NCBI RefSeq assembly: GCF_002729955.1
Contig: NZ_PBYA01000056.1
Span: forward strand, 1-64,000
Length of the DNA stretch: 64,000 nt
Direction of reading: 5' to 3'
From: Salinisphaera sp.
Lineage (GTDB): Bacteria; Pseudomonadota; Gammaproteobacteria; Nevskiales; Salinisphaeraceae
The translations under genes and the position numbers were made by a program. Shown piece after piece: positions 50,265-63,923 of this stretch. Under the pieces are notes generated by a model. The model did not search any database and was not told where the DNA came from. It worked only from the letters and a program-made list of their open reading frames with translations. Each line of letters begins with the position of its first letter. Position 1 is the stretch's first letter.

Positions 50265-51637
50265 CCGTTCCCCGCACACGCGGGGATGAACCGATCGGGC
50301 GGACTCGGGCGCGAGTTCTGGCCAGCCGTTCCCCGCACACGCGGGGATGAACCGGCTGTCACGTCAGCTCGACCGGCCGGAAAGCGCCGTTCCCCGCACA
50401 CGCGGGGATGAACCGCGCCGTTGAGAACGCCTTCCTTGATCATCACGACCGTTCCCCGCACACGCGGGGATGAACCGGCCGCGTGTTCGATATCGAGGAA
50501 ATCCGGGGCCCGTTCCCCGCACACGCGGGGATGAACCGAGCATCGACGGCCACGCGCTGGACATGCCCACCCGTTCCCCGCACACGCGGGGATGAACCGG
50601 GCCAGCAAACGACCGGGAGGACTAGCCCTTGCCGTTCCCCGCACACGCGGGGATGAACCGGCTCGAGCACGCTATCGGACATGATCGATTCCCCGTTCCC
50701 CGCACACGCGGGGATGAACCGTCGAGGTACGGCGCAAGGCCAAGCAACGAACCCCGTTCCCCGCACACGCGGGGATGAACCGGGCGGCTTCTTAGCCGCC
50801 CTTATTCGTTCTGGCCGTTCCCCGCACACGCGGGGATGAACCGCTCGCGGACAACGGCGCGAACACCGGGCCCGGCCGTTCCCCGCACACGCGGGGATGA
50901 ACCGCGCTGGGTTGTAATCGTCACACGCGCAGTCGCCCGTTCCCCGCACACGCGGGGATGAACCGACGACGAACGCCTGCGGGTGCGCCTACGCCAGCCG
51001 TTCCCCGCACACGCGGGGATGAACCGTCCTATCCGTTTCGCATTCGTGCGGTAGATACCCGTTCCCCGCACACGCGGGATGAACCGGGTCGAATCGAGAT
51101 CATCCTGTCGGGATGGAACCGTTCCCCGCACACGCGGGGATGAACCGTGCATGAAATTGCACTAACTAAGATGGTGCCGCCGTTCCCCGCACACGCGGGG
51201 ATGAACCGGGGCGGCTTGAGTTCGATTCGGGCTGGTCTGACCCGTTCCCCGCACACGCGGGGATGAACCGTACCTGCCGATCTATGGCGGCACCGTGACG
51301 GGCCGTTCCCCGCACACGCGGGGATGAACCGCGTTGAAGCAGTGCAACGCCAAGCTCGACTCACCGTTCCCCGCACACGCGGGGATGAACCGATGCGCTG
51401 ACGGCCAGCCCCAGCGACGTGCGCCCGTTCCCCGCACACGCGGGGATGAACCGACGATGGACCCGGCGACGTATGACCTGGTGTTTCGTTCCCCGCACAC
51501 GCGGGGATGAACCGTGCGGACGACCTCGAGCTGTACGCGGGGCCGGACCGTTCCCCGCACACGCGGGGATGAACCGTTCTCGCGGTCCTTCCAGGCGGCC
51601 TCGCCTTCCGTTCCCCGCACCCGCGCGGATGCAAGGT
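50265..51637 (+). CRISPR. CRISPR array 1, type I-E, 23 repeats / 22 spacers
   Basis: Repeats are 29 nt with period 61 (spacers mostly 32 nt, some 33). Each has stem CCCCGC/GCGGGG around an ACAC loop and the end ATGAACCG, the type I-E repeat class. Repeats start at 50265, 50326, 50387, 50449, and so on to 51609. The repeat at 51059 lacks one G of the stem; the one at 51486 has a leading T. The last, 51609-51637, is degenerate (CACCCGCGCGG), marking the old end. Leader is on the left. All repeats before it end in G, as expected if the PAM ends in G. Confidence 0.98.
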
Positions 51638-51725: not shown

Positions 51726-52337
51726 TCACCCAGCCGGCTCTATCAACCGAACGCGATAGCGGTCCAGCGCCTGATAGAGCCCCTCGTGTTGGGTCAACGC
51801 GATCGTGTAATCGTGATCGATCTTGTCCACGCCCGATTCGTAGAGCGCCAGGCAATCTTCACCGGTATACCACGACGGATAAATGATGCCATCCAGCTCC
51901 GGGAGGTGGTTCCGCACGAACGCTGAGAGAGCCTGGGCAAGGTCGTGTTCTTTCTGGTGGATGACGTCCGGGGTGACTCCAGCGATGACCGGGTAGTCCT
52001 GACGCAGATCGAGAAGTTTGAGTGATTGGGTGGTTCGTTTGTAGACGAACAGAACACGCGACGTCAGCAGGGCCGTGGATATTTGCGCAACTCGCTGGCG
52101 AGATTTCGTATGAATGAGTGTTTCGCAGGTGGCCGTTTTGACTGTGGCAGCGAGATAAAGGGCGCCGAACGTCGCGAGTGTCGGGTCTGTGGGTGTCGGC
52201 GGTCCGCTGAAACGGCTCGGCGTACGGCCATAGGTCAATGGCGACTGGCTGTATTTGGCTGGCGAGATACGTACGAAGCGTCCGTCGAATAAATAGTCGC
52301 ACACAATCTCCCTGAGATCGCGCGCGTTGTACGCCAT
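51726..52337 (-). CDS. RES domain toxin
   Basis: The 203-residue protein has a RES fold: RTPSRFSGPPTPT with an Arg, TFGALYLAATVKTATCET with the conserved Tyr and Glu, and a later Ser/Glu region (LALYESGVDKI). RES toxins in Xre-RES pairs destroy NAD+. It overlaps the antitoxin gene by one base (TAATG), the normal antitoxin-first order of translational coupling. It lies between the two CRISPR arrays, on the opposite strand. Confidence 0.82.
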   Translation of the reverse strand: MAYNARDLREIVCDYLFDGRFVRISPAKYSQSPLTYGRTPSRFSGPPTPTDPTLATFGALYLAATVKTATCETLIHTKSRQRVAQISTALLTSRVLFVYKRTTQSLKLLDLRQDYPVIAGVTPDVIHQKEHDLAQALSAFVRNHLPELDGIIYPSWYTGEDCLALYESGVDKIDHDYTIALTQHEGLYQALDRYRVRLIEPAG

Positions 52338-53215
52338 TACCCGAAGCTCCCTTCTTCCTCGCGGTTGAGAGCCACGATCACGGAGGAATGATCCCCGGCA
52401 TGCAAGCGATCCAGCGCAGTCTCGCCGCCGAACTCATCGCGAGGTTCGTTCAGCCAAAGCCACGCGGGCCAGCCATTGCCGTGGATGGCTACGATCTTGT
52501 CCAGGCCGGGCAACCAGACAGGGCCACGCGGACTACCGTCTTCGGCGAACTGGGTCTTGGGGAACACCACGCCGCCGACCTCTTGCGACAAGCCGATAAT
52601 TCGACCGTCTCTATAGCGGTTGTAGATCGTGGTGTGCGATGCATTCAGGTAGTCGGCCATTGCCCGGGCGGAGAGCATCTCGTCGCCTTGGCTGCGGGCC
52701 GGGTCAGGCGCAAATGTCCGCTCGGCCATCCTCGCCTGAGCCTGCTCGCACGTAAGAATGCCCGGTTTCACATTGTCCGGCGGCGCCGCAGGGCCGCTAG
52801 CATTCAGCGCTTCAATCAGCTCACCGGTTTGTGAACGCGAGGGTGCTTGAAACCCAGTGTCGGGTAGCCGGACGCTGTGGGCGAAAGGTACACGCTCGAA
52901 CTCGGACTCGAAGAACGCGTCAACCGGCGCGTTCGTGGACGCCAAGTAAACGACTTCCTCGTCCTCCGGCGGATTCATGAGCGTTTCAAGCCGCATGACC
53001 TCCGTAATGAAGTCGTTCCGGCCGCGACGAAGAGCCCGTTTCGCATGGCTGGTGCTGCTAACGAACGCACCATGCTTGTGACTGAGATTGTCAGCCGCAA
53101 GACGCATGACCAACCGGCCGATCAGTTTTTGCCGGTCGCTATCGAGTTTGTCGAACTCGCTTTCGAGCCACGAAGTCAATCCATGGCCTCGATCGCTCAC
53201 GTTTTCGGATGCCAT
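52337..53215 (-). CDS. Antitoxin of the RES toxin (helix-turn-helix protein)
   Basis: The 292-residue protein has an MbcA/Xre-like toxin-binding C terminus (LWLNEPRDEFGGETALDRLHAGDHSSVIVAL) and a helix-turn-helix in front (SARAMADYLNASHTTIYNRYRDGRIIG). The N-terminal 150 residues are extra and of unknown role; usual Xre antitoxins are half this size. The start at 53215 has AAGGAG eight bases upstream. It should bind its own promoter and hold the toxin inactive. Confidence 0.75.
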   Translation of the reverse strand: MASENVSDRGHGLTSWLESEFDKLDSDRQKLIGRLVMRLAADNLSHKHGAFVSSTSHAKRALRRGRNDFITEVMRLETLMNPPEDEEVVYLASTNAPVDAFFESEFERVPFAHSVRLPDTGFQAPSRSQTGELIEALNASGPAAPPDNVKPGILTCEQAQARMAERTFAPDPARSQGDEMLSARAMADYLNASHTTIYNRYRDGRIIGLSQEVGGVVFPKTQFAEDGSPRGPVWLPGLDKIVAIHGNGWPAWLWLNEPRDEFGGETALDRLHAGDHSSVIVALNREEEGSFG

Positions 53216-53300
53216 GACGCAAACTCCTTGTGACGTCTGACAGTCGTATAGTCCGTCCACCCATGAATTCTGTCAACTTTGTAAAGTCTGTATAAACAGT
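53216..53300 (-). promoter_or_regulatory. Toxin-antitoxin promoter with two small dyads
   Basis: On the minus strand TTGACA is followed 17 bp later by GACTAT, a plausible -35/-10 pair. Just upstream lie CTGTTTATACAG and ACTTTACAAAGT, both nearly palindromic, suitable as antitoxin operators. Confidence 0.5.
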
Positions 53301-53658: not shown

Positions 53659-54480
53659 CCGTTCCCCGCCTGCGCGGGGATGAACCGAACCTCTTAGGCT
53701 AGCCACTCCTGCTAGCGAGCCGTTCCCCGCCTGCGCGGGGATGAACCGCTCATCCCCACGTATGTGACGGTGCCGAACCCCCGTTCCCCGCCTGCGCGGG
53801 GATGAACCGCCGCACCTCGAACTCCTGACCCTCTACGCATGGCCGTTCCCCGCCTGCGCGGGGATGAACCGACAATGTCCTGGATATAGGCCCAGAAATC
53901 GCCCCGTTCCCCGCCTGCGCGGGGATGAACCGCGCTTACCGGCGACCTTGCCGGCCACGCGCTGCCGTTCCCCGCCTGCGCGGGGATGAACCGGTGGTAA
54001 TCAATACCGCCGCCTTCATCGCAGCCCGTTCCCCGCCTGCGCGGGGATGAACCGTCCTTGCCGAACTCACCGGCTTGCATATCGACCCGTTCCCCGCATG
54101 CGCGGGGATGAACCGCCAGATCACGGCCGTATCGCAGCGTGTCGCGCCCGTTCCCCGCATGCGCGGGGATGAACCGGATTCGAGGCGCTGCTGGTACTTT
54201 TCTTCGTACCCGTTCCCCGCATGCGCGGGGATGAACCGCATTGCAGCCACGGCTGCCCGGGGGCTGTCGGCCGTTCCCCGCATGCGCGGGGATGAACCCG
54301 AACGAGAGCGGGCGCATCGACGAGCTAAACCCCGTTCCCCGCATGCGCGGGGATGAACCGGAAAACGTCTATCCGCGTAAGGAACGCGCCGACCTTTCCC
54401 CGCACACCCGGGGATGAACCACTTTTCGGATGACCCGGAAGGCTGGCAGAAGCCCGGTCTCCGCCCGCGCGCATGAACCG
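53659..54480 (+). CRISPR. CRISPR array 2, type I-E, 14 repeats / 13 spacers
   Basis: The 29-nt repeats share stem and end with array 1 but carry a CTGC or ATGC centre instead of ACAC. The first seven (53659-54054) have CCTGCG, the next five (54087-54360) CATGCG. The last two (54393-54421 and about 54453-54480) are degenerate; one has CACACCCGG as in array 1. The repeat at 54271 ends in C instead of G. Leader is on the left. Confidence 0.98.
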
Positions 54481-54717: not shown

Positions 54718-57411
54718 ATGTCAGAACGAGAAGGCCCACACCAATCCATAGCCACATTTTCTGCGTTAAGTCCGCAGGCGCGGTCGATCTGGTCGAAAAG
54801 CGCAGCGGATGAAGAAAGCGCCGGCCACAATTTGCTGGCGCATATGCTGGACGTGTCGGCGGTGGTGGAAACACTGCTTCAACATGAGCCACGCACAAGC
54901 CTGGATTGGGCCAGCCGCGCGCTCGGATTGCCGGGGGAAAGCTGTACGCGGTGGATTGCCGCGATTGCTGGGTTGCACGATTTCGGTAAAGCCATTCCGG
55001 GTTTCGTCATCAAGTGGCCAACGGGTCATGCGCGTGCCGAGGCCGCCGGTCTTGATTTTCCAGATCAGGCCGAGGAGCGGGGCAACCATTCGTTGGCCAC
55101 CGCGGCACTCCTTGCAGAGCCGCTCGGCGAGCTGACTCGCGCCCCGTGGAGTTGGGTGCTGGCCGTCGTGCAGGCGATCGCCGCGCATCACGGCCGTCAC
55201 TTCCGCGCGGACGAAACCCGCCATGGTCGGCCGATCGGTGAGTCTGCCGAGTGGGCGCGCGCACGCCGCGAAATACTCGATGTGTATTGGCGCACGCTCG
55301 ATCCGCAAGGCGGTCCAAGCCACGAAGATCTGGATCTGGTCGCGGTGAACTGGCTGGCCGGCTTGACCAGTACCGCGGATTGGATCGCCTCCAACGTGGC
55401 GTGGTTCGCTCTCGGCGAGCGACATGACGATTTGCAGGCGTACTACCAGTCGGCGCGCGAGCTGGCGAGCGCCGCGTTGTCGGATGCCGGTTGGCCGCGG
55501 TTTCGACGACTTCTGTCCGAGCCTTTACAGGTGGACGCTCTCCTTGGCCGCATCCGCGGCAAACCCACGACGCCGCGCCCGTTGCAGCAGGCCGGCGAGG
55601 CGTTACTGCAAGACGCGCAAGGGCCGACGTTGCTCTTGGTCGAAGCGCCGATGGGCGAGGGCAAGACCGAGTTGGCCTATCTGGCCTATCTTCGCCTGCA
55701 GGCCATGAACGCGCATCGCGGACTGTATGTCGCTTTGCCGACCCAGGCGACCGGCAACGCGCTTTTCGACCGTACTCGAGCGTTTCTGCGCGCCTTCGAC
55801 GAAACGACGACCGTGAAACTCGTGCATGGCGGTGCAGCAATGGCGGACCAGCTGCGTCATCTGCGCGGTATCGCGCACGATAAAGAGGAAAGCGTGTCGG
55901 CGTCGGTCTGGTTTTCCCAGCGGCGTCGGCCATTGCTGTCGCCGTACGGGGTGGGCACGGTAGATCAGGCACTGCTCGGTGTACTCAATGCCAAACACCA
56001 TTTCGTACGGTTGTGGGGCTTGGCAAACCGAGTGGTCGTGCTGGATGAGGTGCATGCGTACGACACCTACACCAGCGTGTTGATTGAGGCGCTCGTACGT
56101 TGGTTGAAAGCCATGGGCAGTTCGGTCGTGCTCATGAGTGCAACGCTGCCGCAAGCCAAACGGGATCGGCTGGTTCGGGCCTGGGGTGCCGATCCGCAGG
56201 AGCTGCCCCAAAGCGACTACCCGCGGTTGACACAAATCGATGCGCGCTCGGTCCGCGGCATGACGGTTGGCTACCGGCCGCAGGCGCCGATTACGGTACA
56301 TGGGCTCGACGAGTCCTTGGAGGCGATCAAGGAACAGGCGATCGCCTTGCTTGAGGAGGGTGGTTGCGGGGCCGTGATCGTCAATACGGTTGATCGCGCG
56401 CAACAACTGTTTCGGTTGCTCGAGCCGCACACGCAGGCAAACGGTATCGAAACAGTGCTGTTTCATGCGCGATTTCCGGCAGATCAGCGCGCCGACATCG
56501 AAAAGCGCGTGCTCGCAATCTTCGGCGAATCGAGCGGTGCCAACGCCGAGGGGCGGCCCGCCAAAGGCTTGCTGATTGCGACCCAGGTGGCCGAGCAATC
56601 GCTCGATCTGGACTTCGATTTCATGCTGAGCGATCTCGCGCCTATCGATCTGCTTCTGCAGCGAGCGGGGCGCATGCACCGCCACGACCGACAGCGCCCG
56701 GCCTCGCATGAGCAAGCGCGCCTGTGGGTCGCGGGGTTGCATCACGATCGCTTGCCGTCGCTCAAGGAGACCGCCTGGGAATACGTCTACGACCCGCTCG
56801 TGCTCGGACATACCTGGGCCTGTCTTCGCGAGCGCGAACTGCTCAACCTGCCGGGCGATATCGATGCGCTGGTTCAGCATGTCTACAGTTTTTCGGAATT
56901 GTCGGCTTCGATAGACGCGAAGATCCGCGATTTCATCGAAATCGAATCCTATGGTGCCCATCTGGGTACCGAGAAGGGCAAGCACCAGCAGGCGATCGAT
57001 ATTTCATTGGACCCGGAGGATGAGCCGGCTCGGGCCTACCAGAACAAGCCGTTCGGCGGTGATGACGAGCAGGGCATGCGTAATGTGACCCGGCTCGGTC
57101 CGGACTCGGTGAATCTCGTACCCATCGATGTCATCGACGGCGCCTGGACTGTCGATGGAACCGTCATCGATCCACAGAAAGTGCCGTCCGACGATATTGC
57201 ACGCCAACTCTACGCGCGCCAGTTGCGCGTGTCGCGCAAGGCGGTCGTGCTCCATTGCCAACAGGCGGAGCGGCCACTGGCATTCGATGAGCATCCGCTT
57301 CTGCGCCATCTCTATCCAATGCCGCTGGTCGCCGGGCGTTGTGAGCTGGGCGGTCAGTCGCTCTATCTGGACCCGGCGCTGGGGCTTGTTTACGAAGCAG
57401 GTGAGAAGTGA
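54718..57411 (+). CDS. cas3: CRISPR-associated helicase-nuclease Cas3
   Basis: The 897-residue protein has an N-terminal HD nuclease (AHMLDV and LHDFGKA, residues 87-91 for HDFGK) and a superfamily 2 helicase. The helicase has Walker A PMGEGKTEL (GEGKT 313-317), DEVH (443-446), LMSATLP, QVAEQSLDLDFD and QRAGRMHRH. Cas3 is recruited by Cascade to R-loops and degrades foreign DNA 3'-5'. It is set 210 bp apart from the cse1 operon, and the gap holds the minus-strand mini-CRISPR described below. No frameshift or missing motif. Confidence 0.95.
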   Translation: MSEREGPHQSIATFSALSPQARSIWSKSAADEESAGHNLLAHMLDVSAVVETLLQHEPRTSLDWASRALGLPGESCTRWIAAIAGLHDFGKAIPGFVIKWPTGHARAEAAGLDFPDQAEERGNHSLATAALLAEPLGELTRAPWSWVLAVVQAIAAHHGRHFRADETRHGRPIGESAEWARARREILDVYWRTLDPQGGPSHEDLDLVAVNWLAGLTSTADWIASNVAWFALGERHDDLQAYYQSARELASAALSDAGWPRFRRLLSEPLQVDALLGRIRGKPTTPRPLQQAGEALLQDAQGPTLLLVEAPMGEGKTELAYLAYLRLQAMNAHRGLYVALPTQATGNALFDRTRAFLRAFDETTTVKLVHGGAAMADQLRHLRGIAHDKEESVSASVWFSQRRRPLLSPYGVGTVDQALLGVLNAKHHFVRLWGLANRVVVLDEVHAYDTYTSVLIEALVRWLKAMGSSVVLMSATLPQAKRDRLVRAWGADPQELPQSDYPRLTQIDARSVRGMTVGYRPQAPITVHGLDESLEAIKEQAIALLEEGGCGAVIVNTVDRAQQLFRLLEPHTQANGIETVLFHARFPADQRADIEKRVLAIFGESSGANAEGRPAKGLLIATQVAEQSLDLDFDFMLSDLAPIDLLLQRAGRMHRHDRQRPASHEQARLWVAGLHHDRLPSLKETAWEYVYDPLVLGHTWACLRERELLNLPGDIDALVQHVYSFSELSASIDAKIRDFIEIESYGAHLGTEKGKHQQAIDISLDPEDEPARAYQNKPFGGDDEQGMRNVTRLGPDSVNLVPIDVIDGAWTVDGTVIDPQKVPSDDIARQLYARQLRVSRKAVVLHCQQAERPLAFDEHPLLRHLYPMPLVAGRCELGGQSLYLDPALGLVYEAGEK

Positions 57412-57431
57412 GGGGAAGAAGCTCTTCCCCT
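57411..57431. terminator. Hairpin after cas3, possible terminator
   Basis: AGGGGAAGA (57411-57419) and TCTTCCCCT (57423-57431) form nine perfect pairs around a three-base loop. The left arm starts at the last base of the cas3 stop codon. No T tract follows on the plus strand. On the minus strand it lies just past the second degenerate repeat, where it could end that short RNA. Function is inferred. Confidence 0.4.
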
Positions 57432-57517
57432 CGCGGCCCCGCTTGCGTGGGGAAGTCGAGTATTGAGTGCCTATTCCAAAGGGCTACTCGGTTCATCTCT
57501 GCTGGCGCAGAGAGCTC
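57429..57517 (-). ncRNA. Degenerate mini-CRISPR, probable CreR-like crRNA-resembling RNA
   Basis: On the minus strand a degenerate repeat (57517-57489) keeps the type I-E form. It has a stem CTCTGC/GCAGAG around GCCA and an end GATGAACCG identical to the local repeat handle. A 31-nt pseudo-spacer (57488-57458) follows. The second degenerate repeat (57457-57429) has stem CCCC...GGGG (16-nt hairpin, same size as in the arrays). Stem changes in the first repeat are compensatory. A TATAGT hexamer (57524-57519) stands at a possible -10. The pseudo-spacer's first 13 nt match the cse1 promoter region. This is the expected form of CreR/CreA-type RNAs, but transcription is not shown. Confidence 0.75.
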
Positions 57518-57535
57518 GACTATAAGCCAAACGTC

Positions 57536-57569
57536 TAGGTGACGAACCTAAAGCCTAAAGGACTACTAT
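57536..57569 (+). promoter_or_regulatory. cse1 promoter region with matching pseudo-protospacer
   Basis: A candidate -10 TACTAT lies at 57564-57569 (GTGACG at 57539-57544 as a poor -35, 19 bp spacing). On the minus strand, starting at 57567, AGTAG-T-CCTTT-A-G matches the pseudo-spacer AGTAG-C-CCTTT-G-G at all of positions 1-13 except 6 and 12. Past position 13 little matches. The adjacent PAM is AAT, not the usual AAG. Cascade bound here would cover the -10 box and block the operon. Confidence 0.6.
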
Positions 57570-57621
57570 TTCTGAAAGACGTAAAAGTCGTGGCTTGGGC
57601 GCGTATTGGTACGGGGGTTAC

Positions 57622-59229
57622 ATGACAGACACGAATGAGAGAAACCGGATAGGAGCCCAGCTTTCCGTTCCGGCGTACGATCTGCTTCGAGAGCCCTGGC
57701 TGTCGGTCTGCCTGATAGACGGCACGGTCACCTCGATGGGATTGATCGAGACGTTTAAACGCAGCCGGGACATCGTGGCACTGGCTGACACCGCGCCGCC
57801 GACGCTCGTTGCGCAATACCGGTTGCTGCTGGCCATCACCCATCGCGCGATCACGATGGCGCGGGGGCGGTGGCGCGAATCCGAGCGAGCCGGCTGGTAT
57901 CGCGATGGCCTGCCCATCGAGGCGATACGCACGTATCTGGAGCACTGGCAGGACCGCTTCTGGCTATTTCATGACACGCATCCGTTCATGCAGGTGGCCT
58001 TGCTGGATACGGCCAAGCCGACCCGCGATAAACACAAAAGTGTGGCCCAGATCTCGCTGGCGAGCGCGACCGGAAACACGCCGGTGGTGTTCGATCACGC
58101 CTTCGACAGCGAGCCGGCGGAACTCACACCGGCGCAGGCGCTGAATACGCTGCTCGGATTTCTGCAATTCACCCCAGGCGGTCTGGTCAAGGTGTTTCGC
58201 AGCGCGGATAAAGCCGGCGCGCTGGCCAATACCGCCGCCGTCATCCCACTCGGCCAGAATCTTGCGGAGACGATCGCCCTGGCTCTGCATCCCGATCAAC
58301 GACGATCCGATGCCGAACCGGATAAACCGAGCTGGGAGCGCGAGCCGTTGACCGAAAGCCAACTTAGCGGTGCGCCGGTTCTGGCCACCGGGCCCAACGA
58401 CCGCTACACGCGCCAAAGCCGTGCCGTGCTGTTTCAGCGAGAAGACAACGGCAATATTCGCTGGCTACGCTTTGGCGCGGGTTTGGCACTCGGCGATAGT
58501 GATACCCAGCCTGATCCGATGGCCAGCTATCGTGCTGGCCAGAACGGCCCGGTGCGCATCAGCTTTACCGAGGGCCGCGCGACCTGGCGCGATCTGCCCG
58601 CGCTCGTGCCCGGGCCTGCGACAGAAAATGAAAATAGACGCCCGGCGGCGGTCATGGCCTATGCGGCCAGTCTGCACCGAACACTCGGGCCCGGCGCGCA
58701 TCGTCACCAGCCGTTGATGGTGGCCGGCTTAGCGAGCGATCAAGCCAAGTTGCTGCGATGGCGCATGGAACAGATCGTGCTGCCTGCGAACCTTCTGATC
58801 GATCCGGATCGCTCCGAAACGCTCCAGAAGAAGTTAGCGGACGCCGAAGCGCTGTACTACGCGTTGCGAGCACTTGCCCGCGCGATGCTCGTACACAGCA
58901 TGCCCGATCCGGATAACAAGGAAACCAAGGCGCGGGCCCAAAGCCTGCTGGCGGCCGGGCCGCTCACGGCGACCTATTTTTCTGCGGCCGAACGTGCTTT
59001 GCCCGAGCTTATGCAACGACTTGGGGCCGGCGATTTCATGGCGGCGACCCAACACTGGAACAAGGCGCTGAATCGAGCGGCCCATCGCGCCTGGGACGAT
59101 GTCGTGGTCGGGCTGGGGAGTACGCCCCGTGGATTGCGTTCAGAGGCCCGCCATTATCCGCGTTTGGTCGGACTGCTCGTCAAACATGCGCCCATCAATG
59201 AAGGGGCGGCTCCCGGAGACAAGTCATGA
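57622..59229 (+). CDS. cse1: Type I-E Cascade large subunit Cse1 (Cas8e/CasA)
   Basis: The 535-residue protein begins with LLREPWLSVCLIDGT, the usual N-terminal Cse1 segment, and has the W/R-rich middle (SYWQDRFWLFHDTHPFMQ type: LEHWQDRFWLFHDTHPFM). It recognises the PAM and recruits Cas3. The start at 57622 has a GGGGGTT ribosome site; the frame opens 27 nt earlier. It overlaps cse2 by four bases (ATGA). Confidence 0.9.
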   Translation: MTDTNERNRIGAQLSVPAYDLLREPWLSVCLIDGTVTSMGLIETFKRSRDIVALADTAPPTLVAQYRLLLAITHRAITMARGRWRESERAGWYRDGLPIEAIRTYLEHWQDRFWLFHDTHPFMQVALLDTAKPTRDKHKSVAQISLASATGNTPVVFDHAFDSEPAELTPAQALNTLLGFLQFTPGGLVKVFRSADKAGALANTAAVIPLGQNLAETIALALHPDQRRSDAEPDKPSWEREPLTESQLSGAPVLATGPNDRYTRQSRAVLFQREDNGNIRWLRFGAGLALGDSDTQPDPMASYRAGQNGPVRISFTEGRATWRDLPALVPGPATENENRRPAAVMAYAASLHRTLGPGAHRHQPLMVAGLASDQAKLLRWRMEQIVLPANLLIDPDRSETLQKKLADAEALYYALRALARAMLVHSMPDPDNKETKARAQSLLAAGPLTATYFSAAERALPELMQRLGAGDFMAATQHWNKALNRAAHRAWDDVVVGLGSTPRGLRSEARHYPRLVGLLVKHAPINEGAAPGDKS

Positions 59230-60299
59230 CATCGCATGCGCAGACATTCGTCGACTATCTCGAAACGCTCCATCAGAACGACCGCGGCGCGATCGCCCAT
59301 CTGCGCCACAGCCTGACGCGAGAACTTGGTGAAGATCCAAAAGCAATAACGCTCGTGGAGGGTTTCGTGGGTGGCGATCGACAAGCCGACGATCCGCATC
59401 GGCGCGCGCTGTATCTCGTGGCTGGCCTGTTCGCCAGCCATCCGGAACGCGCGCGTGCCTCGTTCGCCGAAGCGTTCGGCGCGCTTTGGCGTACACGAGA
59501 CAATCCAAGCGTCGAACAGCGTTTCATCGCGTTGCTTGAAGCCGATGAACAGCAGGTGGTTGCGCGTCTACGCCAGGCCACAACGCTACTCGTAGCAGAC
59601 GGCTATGGCTTCGATTACGCCCAGTTGATATCCGATATCGCGCTGTGGCTCGACCCTTGCAAAGACGAACATCGGTGGCGTGAGATGCGACAACGCTGGG
59701 GGCGCGACTTCTATGGGGTGGCGTTCGCGCGTCAGGCTGAGGATAGCGATCCGCAGGCGTTCACAAAACATCTGGTAACGCTTACGAAAGACAAATCCAG
59801 TGGGCTGGCGCGTCTGCGTCGAAGCCTGACGTTGCCGCCGGGCGAGGATCCCGCGGTGTTCCCGTTGGTAGAACCCTTCGTGGATCCGGCTTGGGAAAGC
59901 AGCGATCCGAGACGGCGCGCGCGTTATCTGGCAGCCGGTCTGTTCGCGATCCATCCGGTGTACGAGCCGAACCGAAGCCTGGCCACAGCGCTCAATAAGC
60001 TCGTCGCGCAACAGAATGACGACGGCGAAAGCATCGAGCGCCGTTTCATTGCGGTACTCGGCGCCTCGCCGGACACCATGGCCGACCATCTACGCCAGGC
60101 GATGGTCCTGCTGCGCGATACCGGCATCGGTTACGACCCGACCCGGCTCATCAAAGATCTGGCGGTCTGGTTGGCGCGCGCCCCGAACATCGCGCGCCTG
60201 GATCGGCGGCGCCAGCGCTGGGCACGGGATTTCTACTGGATCCCGCGTACAAACGAACACGATACCCAACCCGAAACACCACAAGAGCAGGGGGCCTGA
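59226..60299 (+). CDS. cse2: Double-length Cse2 (Cas11e/CasB): two fused Cse2 domains
   Basis: The protein has 357 residues; normal Cse2 has 160-190. Residues 6-165 and 178-340 are homologous to each other. LRHSLT (26-31) pairs with LRRSLT (197-202), GEDP with GEDP, DPHRRALYLVAGLFASHP with DPRRRARYLAAGLFAIHP, SVEQRFIALL with SIERRFIAVL, and RWGRDFY (157-163) with RWARDFY (331-337). The basic residues that contact crRNA and target DNA recur in both halves, so both seem usable. Identity is about 40%, so the duplication is old. Cascade normally has two Cse2 per complex; this one would supply both as one chain. No frameshift. Confidence 0.92.
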   Translation: MTSHAQTFVDYLETLHQNDRGAIAHLRHSLTRELGEDPKAITLVEGFVGGDRQADDPHRRALYLVAGLFASHPERARASFAEAFGALWRTRDNPSVEQRFIALLEADEQQVVARLRQATTLLVADGYGFDYAQLISDIALWLDPCKDEHRWREMRQRWGRDFYGVAFARQAEDSDPQAFTKHLVTLTKDKSSGLARLRRSLTLPPGEDPAVFPLVEPFVDPAWESSDPRRRARYLAAGLFAIHPVYEPNRSLATALNKLVAQQNDDGESIERRFIAVLGASPDTMADHLRQAMVLLRDTGIGYDPTRLIKDLAVWLARAPNIARLDRRRQRWARDFYWIPRTNEHDTQPETPQEQGA

Positions 60300-60301
60300 A
60301 C

Positions 60302-61447
60302 ATGCGTGCATTCCTCGAATTCCACATCATCCAGAACTTCGCACCGTCGAATCTCAATCGCGACGATACCGGCGCGCCCAAGGACGCGATCTTTGGCGGC
60401 CATCGTCGTGCGCGGGTAAGCAGCCAGTGCTTCAAGCGGGCCACGCGATTGGCGGCGGCCGAATACGACCTTATCGACCCGTCGCACCGCGGCATTCGTA
60501 CAAAACGCCTCAAGCGGTTGCTGATCGAGCGACTCATCGATCGCGATCCCGAAGAAGCCGCAGGCAAGATCGAAAGCGCGCTGGCGGCAGCCGGGCTTAG
60601 CCTGTCCAAGAAGGACAGCGAAAAGACCGAATACCTGCTCTTTCTCGGCGAGAAGGAAATTACAGGCTTCGCGGAATTGGTGGACGAGCATTGGGACGAA
60701 CTGGCGGATGTCGATTCGGCCGCCAACAAGAAACAGCGCAAGGCGGCTGCGCCGCCGGAAGTTACCAAGAAAGCCAAGGCGCTTCTCGATGGCGGCAAGG
60801 CAGTGGACATCGCGCTGTTTGGCCGCATGCTCGCTGATCTGCCCGCAGTCAACCAGGACGCAGCCTGCCAGGTCGCCCATGCGATCAGTACGCACCGCGT
60901 GGAACGCGAATTCGACTACTACACGGCGGTCGACGACGACCTGGGGCCGGAGGATGAGCCGGGCGCGGACATGATCGGCCAGATCGAATTCAACTCCGCG
61001 ACTTTCTATCGCTACGCGGTACTCGACATCAACAAGCTGCTCGACAACCTGCAGGGGGATCGTGAGCTGGCCTTGTCGGCGATCGAGGCATTCGCCACGG
61101 CCTTCGTGCGTGCTGTGCCCACGGGCAAACAGAACACCTTCGCGGCGCACAACGCGCCAGATTTCATCGGGGTGAGCCTGCGCCATGTTGCGCCGATGAG
61201 TCTGGCCAATGCGTTTGAAAAGCCTGTGACCGCGGATCTGCGTGAGTCGCTCACGGAACAATCGGTTCAACGATTGCAGAAGACCGACCAGAAGCTATCG
61301 GCCGTGTACAGCGACGGCCAGGACCAGTGGCTCTATCTGGATCTGACCGGCCAGTGGCAAGACAACGATCAAAGTGAAGCGGTGCCGAACCTCGTTCAGC
61401 TTGCTCAGCGCGTACGGGATATCGCAGATACAGCACTGGAGGCATAG
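60302..61447 (+). CDS. cas7: Type I-E backbone subunit Cas7 (Cse4/CasC)
   Basis: The 381-residue protein starts FLEFHIIQNFAPSNLNRDDTG, the conserved Cas7e N terminus with the RNA-binding lead-in, followed by DAIFGGHRRARVSSQCFKRA. Later comes the VRAVPTGKQNTFAAHN loop. Six copies coat the crRNA spacer in Cascade. It follows cse2 with a 2-nt gap and precedes cas5 by 2 nt. Confidence 0.95.
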   Translation: MRAFLEFHIIQNFAPSNLNRDDTGAPKDAIFGGHRRARVSSQCFKRATRLAAAEYDLIDPSHRGIRTKRLKRLLIERLIDRDPEEAAGKIESALAAAGLSLSKKDSEKTEYLLFLGEKEITGFAELVDEHWDELADVDSAANKKQRKAAAPPEVTKKAKALLDGGKAVDIALFGRMLADLPAVNQDAACQVAHAISTHRVEREFDYYTAVDDDLGPEDEPGADMIGQIEFNSATFYRYAVLDINKLLDNLQGDRELALSAIEAFATAFVRAVPTGKQNTFAAHNAPDFIGVSLRHVAPMSLANAFEKPVTADLRESLTEQSVQRLQKTDQKLSAVYSDGQDQWLYLDLTGQWQDNDQSEAVPNLVQLAQRVRDIADTALEA

Positions 61448-61449
61448 TC

Positions 61450-62124
61450 GTGGCCACACTGCTGATGCGCCTGGCCGGGCCCATGCAATCCTGGGGGACG
61501 ACCAGCCGGTTCGACGAGCGCGATACACAGCTCGAGCCCTCCAAATCGGGCGTGCTGGGCCTCGTCTGTGCCGCACTCGGACGCGATCGAGCCGAGCCGG
61601 TCGCCGATCTCGCAGCATTGCGGATGGCCGTGCGGGTCGATCGCGAAGGTATTCCGATGCGTGACTATCACACCGCGACCGGCGTGGTTGCCTCATCCGG
61701 CAAGGCCGATGCGAATCGTACGGTGGTCAGCCAGCGCTATTACCTGTCGGACGCGGTTTTCCTCGTTGCACTGGAAGGCGACCGCGAATTGCTGTCGCAA
61801 GTCCACAATGCCCTGCGCACGCCCCACTGGCCTTTGTGCCTCGGGCGTAAGAGTTTCGCTCCGTCTTGCCCGGTCTTCATGCCGGAGGGGTTGCGCGATG
61901 GGGGCCTGTTGGACGTACTCGGGTCGGCGGCGCTGCTGACCGAACAAGACGGTATTGAGAACACCCCGCAGCGACGCGTCGTGATCGAAGATGCCGAGGA
62001 AGGCACCGTTCGGGTCGATCAACCGATTGCGCCATTTTCCGAGCGCCGGTTTGGTCCGCGTTTCGTCAAGACATTCGATCTGAAACTGGAGGTCGGCAAT
62101 GTTTCTGACACGACTGACGCTTGA
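61450..62124 (+). CDS. cas5e: Type I-E Cas5 (CasD)
   Basis: The 224-residue RAMP protein begins with a GTG start and has LLMRLAGPMQSWGTTSRFDERDT, the Cas5 signature, plus SKSGVLGLVCAALG. It caps the 5' handle (ATGAACCG end of the repeat) in Cascade. The last 26 nt overlap cas6e, so translation is likely coupled. Confidence 0.95.
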   Translation: MATLLMRLAGPMQSWGTTSRFDERDTQLEPSKSGVLGLVCAALGRDRAEPVADLAALRMAVRVDREGIPMRDYHTATGVVASSGKADANRTVVSQRYYLSDAVFLVALEGDRELLSQVHNALRTPHWPLCLGRKSFAPSCPVFMPEGLRDGGLLDVLGSAALLTEQDGIENTPQRRVVIEDAEEGTVRVDQPIAPFSERRFGPRFVKTFDLKLEVGNVSDTTDA

Positions 62125-62701
62125 CCTGCGCCAAAGCGCGGTTCGGCGCGATCTTGCCGACGCCTATGACATGCACCGCTCTCTGGTGCGTGCGTTCGTA
62201 ACCGAAGGCGACGAGGCGCCGCCGCGTTTTCTCTGGCGCGTCGAGCCCGAAGCGGTATGGCGGGCGCCTGTCCTGATGGTTCAATCGATCGTCGAACCGG
62301 ATTGGCGGGGTTTCAAGGAAAAGGGCTATCTCAAAAAAGCGCCGGAAACCAAAGAAATCGACCCGGCTCGGCTCATTCAGATCGAGCGGTATTACCGTTT
62401 CCGGCTGTTCGCGAACCCGACGATTACGCAACAAGGCAAGCGCTACGGGTTGCAAACCGAACCCCAGCAACAGGCATGGCTCGAACGCAAGGGTACTAAA
62501 TGCGGCTTCGAGATACAGAACGTGTTGGTGACGGCGAGCGATGTCGTACATCTGAAAAACGACACGATCTGTCTGCAACAAGCCTGTTTCGAAGGCGTTC
62601 TAAAGGCCACGGATGCGCCTGCCCTGCAGGCTGCGGTCGAACAGGGCATTGGTCCCGGTAAAGCATTCGGGCTGGGATTGTTAAGTCTCGCGCCGCGCTG
62701 A
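62099..62701 (+). CDS. cas6e: Type I-E crRNA endonuclease Cas6e (CasE)
   Basis: The 200-residue RAMP nuclease has its likely catalytic His26 and Tyr23 in DAYDMHRSLVRAF and the glycine-rich loop GIGPGKAFGLGLLSLAP at the C terminus. It cuts the repeat hairpin to release crRNA and stays bound to it. It must also be able to process the degenerate repeats at 57429-57517 for those to function as a guide, and the preserved hairpin stem suggests it can. Confidence 0.95.
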   Translation: MFLTRLTLDLRQSAVRRDLADAYDMHRSLVRAFVTEGDEAPPRFLWRVEPEAVWRAPVLMVQSIVEPDWRGFKEKGYLKKAPETKEIDPARLIQIERYYRFRLFANPTITQQGKRYGLQTEPQQQAWLERKGTKCGFEIQNVLVTASDVVHLKNDTICLQQACFEGVLKATDAPALQAAVEQGIGPGKAFGLGLLSLAPR

Positions 62702-62707
62702 TATTCG

Positions 62708-63923
<1,216 letters not shown>

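Follow-up and report, generated by a model that had tools for sequence, protein, structure and literature searches.

A degenerate mini-array between cas3 and cas8e in a type I-E locus of Salinisphaera, a probable CreR-type guide for Cascade autorepression

Mini-arrays, or crRNA-like elements, in which two repeat-like sequences flank a single spacer were reportedly described by Shmakov et al. in 2023 (NAR 51:8150), and their spacers are said to be partly complementary to cas promoters, that of cas8 in particular.

Autorepression of cas genes by CreR has already been described for type I-E. According to PMC13131331, CreR acts in types I-B, I-E, and V-A through partial complementarity to a cas promoter, and the reviews on CreR (PMC13131331, PMC12948488, PMC12737573) also cover relief of this repression by competing crRNAs and by anti-CRISPR proteins. 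The element analyzed here lies in the window (the whole stretch of Salinisphaera sp. DNA under study, 64 kb). It resembles CreR (Liu et al. 2023, as presented in PMC13131331, PMC12948488, and PMC12737573) as a putative crRNA-like RNA of mini-CRISPR origin, partly complementary to a cas promoter and using the same effector in a system type, I-E, that is among those stated; it differs in that the window mini-array is known here from its sequence. Two other described systems are related. In type I-B, Cascade guided by CreA represses creT, and the seed involved is 11 bp long (PMC10989794). The CreTA/CreA modules of type I-B and other types share with the window two degenerate repeats, psi-R1 and psi-R2, together with a promoter match over an 11-bp seed, but that promoter drives a toxin gene, whereas the target in the window belongs to the Cascade operon. 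As described in PMC8730458, the L-tracrRNA of type II (Workman et al. 2021) is likewise a natural guide with which an effector represses its own operon, in that case Cas9 with a long tracrRNA instead of Cascade with a mini-array.

The cas3-cas8e gap and its seed-target match

The window contains a complete type I-E cas set and two CRISPR arrays between 50.2 and 63.9 kb (Table 1). The best candidate for the cas8e start is the ATG at 57622, which is in frame with the cas8e open reading frame (ORF) and preserved as ATGACAGACACG in a Vreelandella relative. The Cse2/Cas11e protein (357 aa; 59226-60299, plus strand) is a head-to-tail duplication in which Cas11e models match two stretches; the underlying DNA repeat spans 82 nt with 71% identity. 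Between the two arrays, the minus strand (51726-53260) carries a RES-domain gene (PF08808, 3.7e-17) and an Xre/MbcA/ParS-like partner, the latter a weak match under the Pfam cut-off; these two genes are likely to form a toxin-antitoxin pair.

Table 1. Features of the type I-E locus and of the mini-array, in window coordinates
Feature	Position	Strand	Details and basis
CRISPR array 1	50265..51636	+	Repeat CCGTTCCCCGCACACGCGGGGATGAACCG; degenerate last repeat
CRISPR array 2	53659..54421	+	Repeat CCGTTCCCCGCCTGCGCGGGGATGAACCG and variants; degenerate last repeat
cas3 (I-E)	54718..57411	+	PADLOC Cas3e, 1.9e-192
Perfect inverted repeat at cas3 stop	57410..57432	none	GAGGGGAAGA-AGC-TCTTCCCCTC; sequence
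psi-R2, second degenerate repeat	57429..57457	-	Stem CCCC..GCAA..GGGG with one A-C mismatch; sequence and predicted fold
Pseudo-spacer (guide)	57458..57488	-	About 31 nt, AGTAGCCCTTTGGAATAGG...
psi-R1, first degenerate repeat	57489..57517	-	GAGCTCTCTGCGCCAGCAGAGATGAACCG; handle identical to true arrays; predicted fold
Candidate -10 of mini-array promoter	57519..57524	-	TATAGT; inferred from by-eye sequence comparison
Target protospacer, cas8e promoter region	57536..57567	-	Seed match 57567-57555
Candidate -10 of cas8e operon promoter	57564..57569	+	TACTAT; sequence
PAM	57568..57570	-	AAT; sequence
cas8e/cse1, first gene of Cascade operon	57622..59229	+	PADLOC Cas8e, 3.3e-93 on 57595-59229
cse2 (tandem duplicated), cas7e, cas5e, cas6e, cas1e, cas2e	59226..63923	+	

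The gap from the cas3 stop (57411) to the cas8e ATG holds a two-repeat degenerate mini-array on the minus strand which, like CreR, consists of one spacer between two degenerate repeats within the cas locus. psi-R1 retains an intact 8-nt 5' handle, ATGAACCG (57496-57489), the same as that of both true arrays, and is predicted to fold into a perfect 6-bp stem (CTCTGC-GCCA-GCAGAG). As in CreR, the handle and the Cas6e hairpin fit the cognate Cascade in the window; they are less clean in some relatives. The pseudo-spacer begins immediately after the handle, at 57488, and reads AGTAGCCCTTTGG. The inverted repeat at the cas3 stop lacks a T run but may mark the end of both converging transcripts; it occurs in a related form in the three nearest relatives. 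By-eye comparison places candidate -10 elements of the mini-array promoter (TATAGT, TATCAT, and TATAAT) in the same three relatives, at nearly equal spacing from the handle. In a sigma-70 consensus scan, neither the candidate cas8e promoter nor that of the mini-array passes.

Read on the minus strand from 57567, the target is AGTAGTCCTTTAGG. As the original prediction had it, positions 1 to 5, 7 to 11, and 13 of the pseudo-spacer match, the first 13 positions are mismatched only at 6 and 12, and the flanking PAM (57570-57568) is AAT. Past position 13, pairing falls to the background level. The prediction also had the match covering the candidate -10 of cas8e, which holds for four of the six bases, with the remaining ones falling in the PAM. 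Against its chance estimate of 1e-4, 5 of 20,000 dinucleotide-shuffled gaps had such a match (about 2.5e-4). Within the whole window, the spacer and its target are the only two sites matching at 11 of 11 positions, and AAK-AGTAG-N-CCTTT occurs in the 3.84-Mb genome at a single site, the target in the cas8e promoter region. Limited seed complementarity next to a PAM, in a cas promoter region and at a single genome site, is again as in CreR.

This uniqueness bears on the idea that the RNA is a CreA-like antitoxin guide repressing a toxin, for instance in the RES-Xre pair described above. That pair is at hand, and guides of this kind are found in CreTA modules. However, the only genome site with the seed and an AAK motif is the one in the cas8e promoter region, rather than at an adjacent toxin gene as in CreTA, and no ORF is seen in the 55 bp from the target to cas8e in the window. 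A guide directed against the RES-Xre pair is therefore rejected, and a CreA-like role in general is extremely improbable.

Seed-target pairs in other type I-E loci

The Cas8e protein of the same-genus genome G005, whose matching named record is S. shabanensis, is 82% identical to that of the window. Across 14 same-genus genomes, 85 same-order genomes, and one scan of genome contigs, cas8e at 67% identity or more was found, besides the window, only in S. shabanensis, the same-genus genome G011, and Vreelandella songnenensis. All three carry a mini-array at the same place and on the same strand (L003/L008, L004, and L009, respectively). Their seeds differ (TTACGnTCATT in S. shabanensis, CGTAGnCnTTT in G011, and AATAGnCCTT in Vreelandella), and each has a matching target in the gap of its own locus, flanked by AAG, AAG, and AAT, respectively. 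The best own-gap sites match at 10 of 10 seed positions in the window and S. shabanensis and at 9 in each of the two others. When spacers and gaps of these four loci are swapped, the best sites of the 12 combinations reach 6 to 9 of 10, and the two at 9 lack a full match over the first five positions. The differences between the window and Vreelandella include a compensatory one at position 2, where spacer and target both have G in the window and both have A in Vreelandella.

In predicted folds, the psi-R1 hairpin is absent in Vreelandella and only partly formed in G011. The handle was compared with that of the neighboring true array in the window, L003, L004, L009, L037, and L049 (the short L051 contig has no array). 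The two agree in the first three loci and differ in L009 (ATAAACCG versus ATGAACCG), L037 (CTGAACCA versus ATGAACCG), and L049 (ATCAACCG versus ATTAACCG).

Two side observations concern these relatives. The cas8e of V. songnenensis is 81% identical to that of the window, whereas that of G011, from the same genus as the window, is only 68% identical; the closer of the two comes from the other genus, and horizontal transfer that took the mini-array along is likely. In S. shabanensis, a small plus-strand ORF (54 codons with a hydrophobic middle; L008, 3825-3989) lies between the CreR target and cas8e. It has no match above the Pfam cut-off and would come under the same CreR control as cas8e.

In a wider scan, the 700 bp upstream of cas8e was searched, in 43 loci at first and then in 57. 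Left out of the 57 were further copies of the same places (L001, L002, L008, L015, L027, and L029), larger regions of included genomes (L057 to L062), fragments (L014, L026, L035, and L072), L076 (the place of L046, scanned apart), and E. coli variants (L030, L031, L073, and L074). A pair was counted when all of positions 1 to 5 and at least 9 of the 10 positions 1 to 5 and 7 to 11 matched beside an AAG or AAT PAM.

In 10 of the 57 loci, the spacer behind a handle-like site has such a cognate target: the window, L003, L004, L009, L037 (G208), L049 (G139), L051 (G447), L064 (G1160), L065 (G1109), and E. coli K-12. In all ten, the mini-array lies on the strand opposite to the cas genes. Ten of 184 handle-like sites pass, versus 115 of 77,792 other sites (Fisher 5.9e-13), a comparison over 57 phylogenetically non-independent loci, some sharing one genome, and with a criterion chosen once the first pairs were known. 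Over the initial 43 loci, the figures are 8 of 132 and 87 of 58,692, and none of 336 swaps passes. The PAM is AAG in eight pairs and AAT in two (the window and Vreelandella). Co-variation in relatives, which the original prediction had named as a check, is indeed found: the first-five seeds of the ten pairs are all different, each matches its own gap only, and none of the 560 non-cognate combinations of the ten spacers with the 57 loci passes. Because of this result, the shuffled gaps, and the single genome site, a chance match is rejected.

Over the ten pairs, matches number 10 at each of positions 1 to 5 (as required), 1 at position 6, and 10, 9, 9, 10, and 9 at positions 7 to 11, which selection partly required. 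Beyond these, there are 2 at position 12, 10 at position 13, 7 at 14, 4 each at 15 and 16, and 1 at 17, and then the background level. Position 13 lay outside the selection and matches in all ten pairs, that is, in nine of nine besides the window. Mismatches thus concentrate at 6 and 12, the positions claimed at the outset to be flipped out. With 6 and 12 drifting and 13 kept, the pattern fits the 5+1 geometry of Cascade, in which every sixth guide base is flipped out. Mismatch at 6 and 12 is itself no rule, because L065 pairs at both. Selection for mismatch there was considered and rejected: L065 matches at both positions and K-12 at position 12, and these 3 of 20 cells are within chance for sites under no constraint. 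As a separate observation, transitions account for 12 of the 17 mismatches at these positions, each of the 12 with G or C in the spacer and A or T in the target, possibly through AT pressure on promoters or through C-to-T decay of the target. In the distant loci L037, L049, and L051, the pseudo-spacers run by eye for some 20 to 23 nt before psi-R2, below the normal I-E length.

These patterns also weigh on whether the element is simply what remains of an ordinary array in decay, with a match due to chance or to a self-targeting relic and no present function. The degenerate repeats and the end of pairing at about position 13 would suit such a remnant, and Cooper et al. describe seed-only off-target binding of E. 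coli Cascade as transcriptionally silent (PMC5904413). However, seeds and targets change jointly across species with the match kept, the window retains both handle and stem, and a relic would not hold positions 1 to 5, 7 to 11, and 13 while 6 and 12 drift. We consider a functionless remnant very unlikely.

Similarly small is the probability that the main site of action is not cas8e but the promoter of the RNA itself or, through an antisense effect, the end of cas3. The target does also overlap the -35 place of the divergent mini-array promoter, and for the E. coli anti-Pcas transcript (see below) a review reports that a disturbance of cas3 termination or translation has been suggested. However, an antisense role leaves the handle, stem, PAM, and 5+1 pairing unexplained, and in the eight pairs that were laid out the target sits between the mini-array and cas8e.

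By the criterion used, 47 of the 57 scanned loci have no pair. Among the 35 pairless loci of the first 43, the gap could be estimated in 14; it is at most 11 bp in five and an apparent 71 to 572 bp in nine, so a gap alone is insufficient to bring a mini-array. The cas3 and casA genes overlap in Ideonella and are 14 bp apart in Edwardsiella and 49 bp apart on a Thermus plasmid; in none of these three loci do the 700 bp before casA contain a pair, and a by-eye handle scan upstream of cas3 in Ideonella and Edwardsiella gave nothing convincing. Two candidates were left uncounted: a weak one in L046 with an AAA PAM and a plus-strand handle, and one in L076 that matches at 9 of 10 positions next to AAT but has a loose handle. 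A DNA search of the window gap against plasmids gave no match, and a profile search across the phylum picked up no genome other than that of the window (1 of 398).

E. coli K-12 and the anti-Pcas transcript

In E. coli K-12 (NC_000913, 2884139-2884552), the gap strand opposite to the cas operon reads CCTTCCCTACTTAAGTAGGGATAAACCG and then TTATTGGTCTTATTATC, that is, psi-R1 (CCTTCCCTACTTAAGTAGGGATAAACCG) and a spacer beginning TTATTGGTCTTATTATC, followed by a psi-R2-like hairpin across the cas3 stop. The best seed site in this gap is AAG-TTATTCGTTTTATTAT, which matches at 9 of 10 seed positions; over the first 17 positions, mismatches are confined to 6, 9, and 17. Its PAM overlaps TTGCAG, located 17 bp before TATTGT; judging from the sequence, TTGCAG-17-TATTGT is likely to be Pcas. 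The other strand carries a divergent TTATTA-17-TATAAT, one of several weak matches.

Reviews describe the anti-Pcas RNA as 150 to 200 nt long, overlapping the cas3 transcript, and call its role unknown. An RNA of about 170 nt or longer from the start that TTATTA-17-TATAAT predicts would span psi-R1, the spacer, and the psi-R2-like hairpin, and the RNA bound by K-12 Cascade would start AUAAACCG-UUAUUGGU. The transcript and the mini-array are alike in being divergent from the cas3-casA gap, with an expected span that holds psi-R1, spacer, and psi-R2. The mini-array reading is drawn here from sequence, and on balance we regard anti-Pcas as probably a CreR. Among the literature matches listed, including the reviews that name anti-Pcas, none links it to a CRISPR-like guide in the text covered.

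The K-12 gap is found at a coverage of at least 80% in 1,106 of 5,426 E. coli genomes. Of four variants compared, three (L030, L073, and L074) retain the handle, the first-five seed, and the AAG target, with a spacer that departs from the K-12 one at position 12; in the fourth, L031, most of the gap is gone and an IS1 lies beside it. In strain 1506 an IS1 sits at the casA region, in 22AR0118 one sits inside the casA match, and strain P276M has an internal stop in casA, while its gap keeps the mini-array and target.

Proposed autorepression and its meaning

With anatomy, match, genome-wide uniqueness, and co-variation across genomes observed as above, the mini-array very probably encodes a CreR-type guide through which Cascade represses its own operon. 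Its RNA would be transcribed leftward from its own promoter, starting at about the psi-R1 hairpin; the intact handle and stem suggest that Cas6e would cut after this hairpin, leaving the standard AUGAACCG handle, so that the guide bound by Cascade would start AUGAACCG-AGUAGCCC. The loaded complex would find AAT-AGTAGnCCTTTnG in the cas8e promoter region and pair over about 11 bases. As pairing ends at about position 13, Cas3 would not be recruited; in E. coli, interference requires more than 18 bp of pairing (PMC5904413). Cascade would then bar RNA polymerase from the cas8e-cse2-cas7-cas5-cas6-cas1-cas2 promoter, and Cas levels would be held low, rising once Cascade is taken up by ordinary crRNAs or by anti-CRISPR proteins. 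Because of the overlap with the -35 place of the divergent promoter, the complex may also repress its own guide.

Data on E. coli Cascade, as given in PMC5904413, allow a comparison. In vivo, AAG and five seed pairs are enough for binding, with position 6 flipped out (Cooper et al. describe every sixth guide base as flipped out), and at sites other than AAG, binding is weaker or comes with matches past position 5. The AAT of the window differs from the AAG optimal in E. coli, and its matches reach past position 5, like those of the bound non-AAG sites. Against repression, the same authors saw no effect on transcription when Cascade bound off-target sites through the seed alone, and they cite weaker repression with six PAM-distal mismatches. 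Their E. coli parent strain carried a replacement of the cas3-Pcse1 region, and their study would probably have missed a mini-array-dependent Cascade peak at the cas8e promoter.

If the K-12 assignment is true, seed-only autorepression by Cascade would be both ancient and widespread among type I-E systems, the anti-Pcas transcript of the best-studied of them would gain a possible function, and Cascade strains carrying replacements of cas3 and of the cse1 promoter would have lost this autorepression. The window itself suggests a bacterial immune system that bears a worn-down guide against its own promoter, and the comparison across loci suggests that evolution retains exactly the positions that Cascade can pair while 6 and 12 drift. 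The ten seed-target pairs form a natural data set on the minimal Cascade pairing for promoter regulation.
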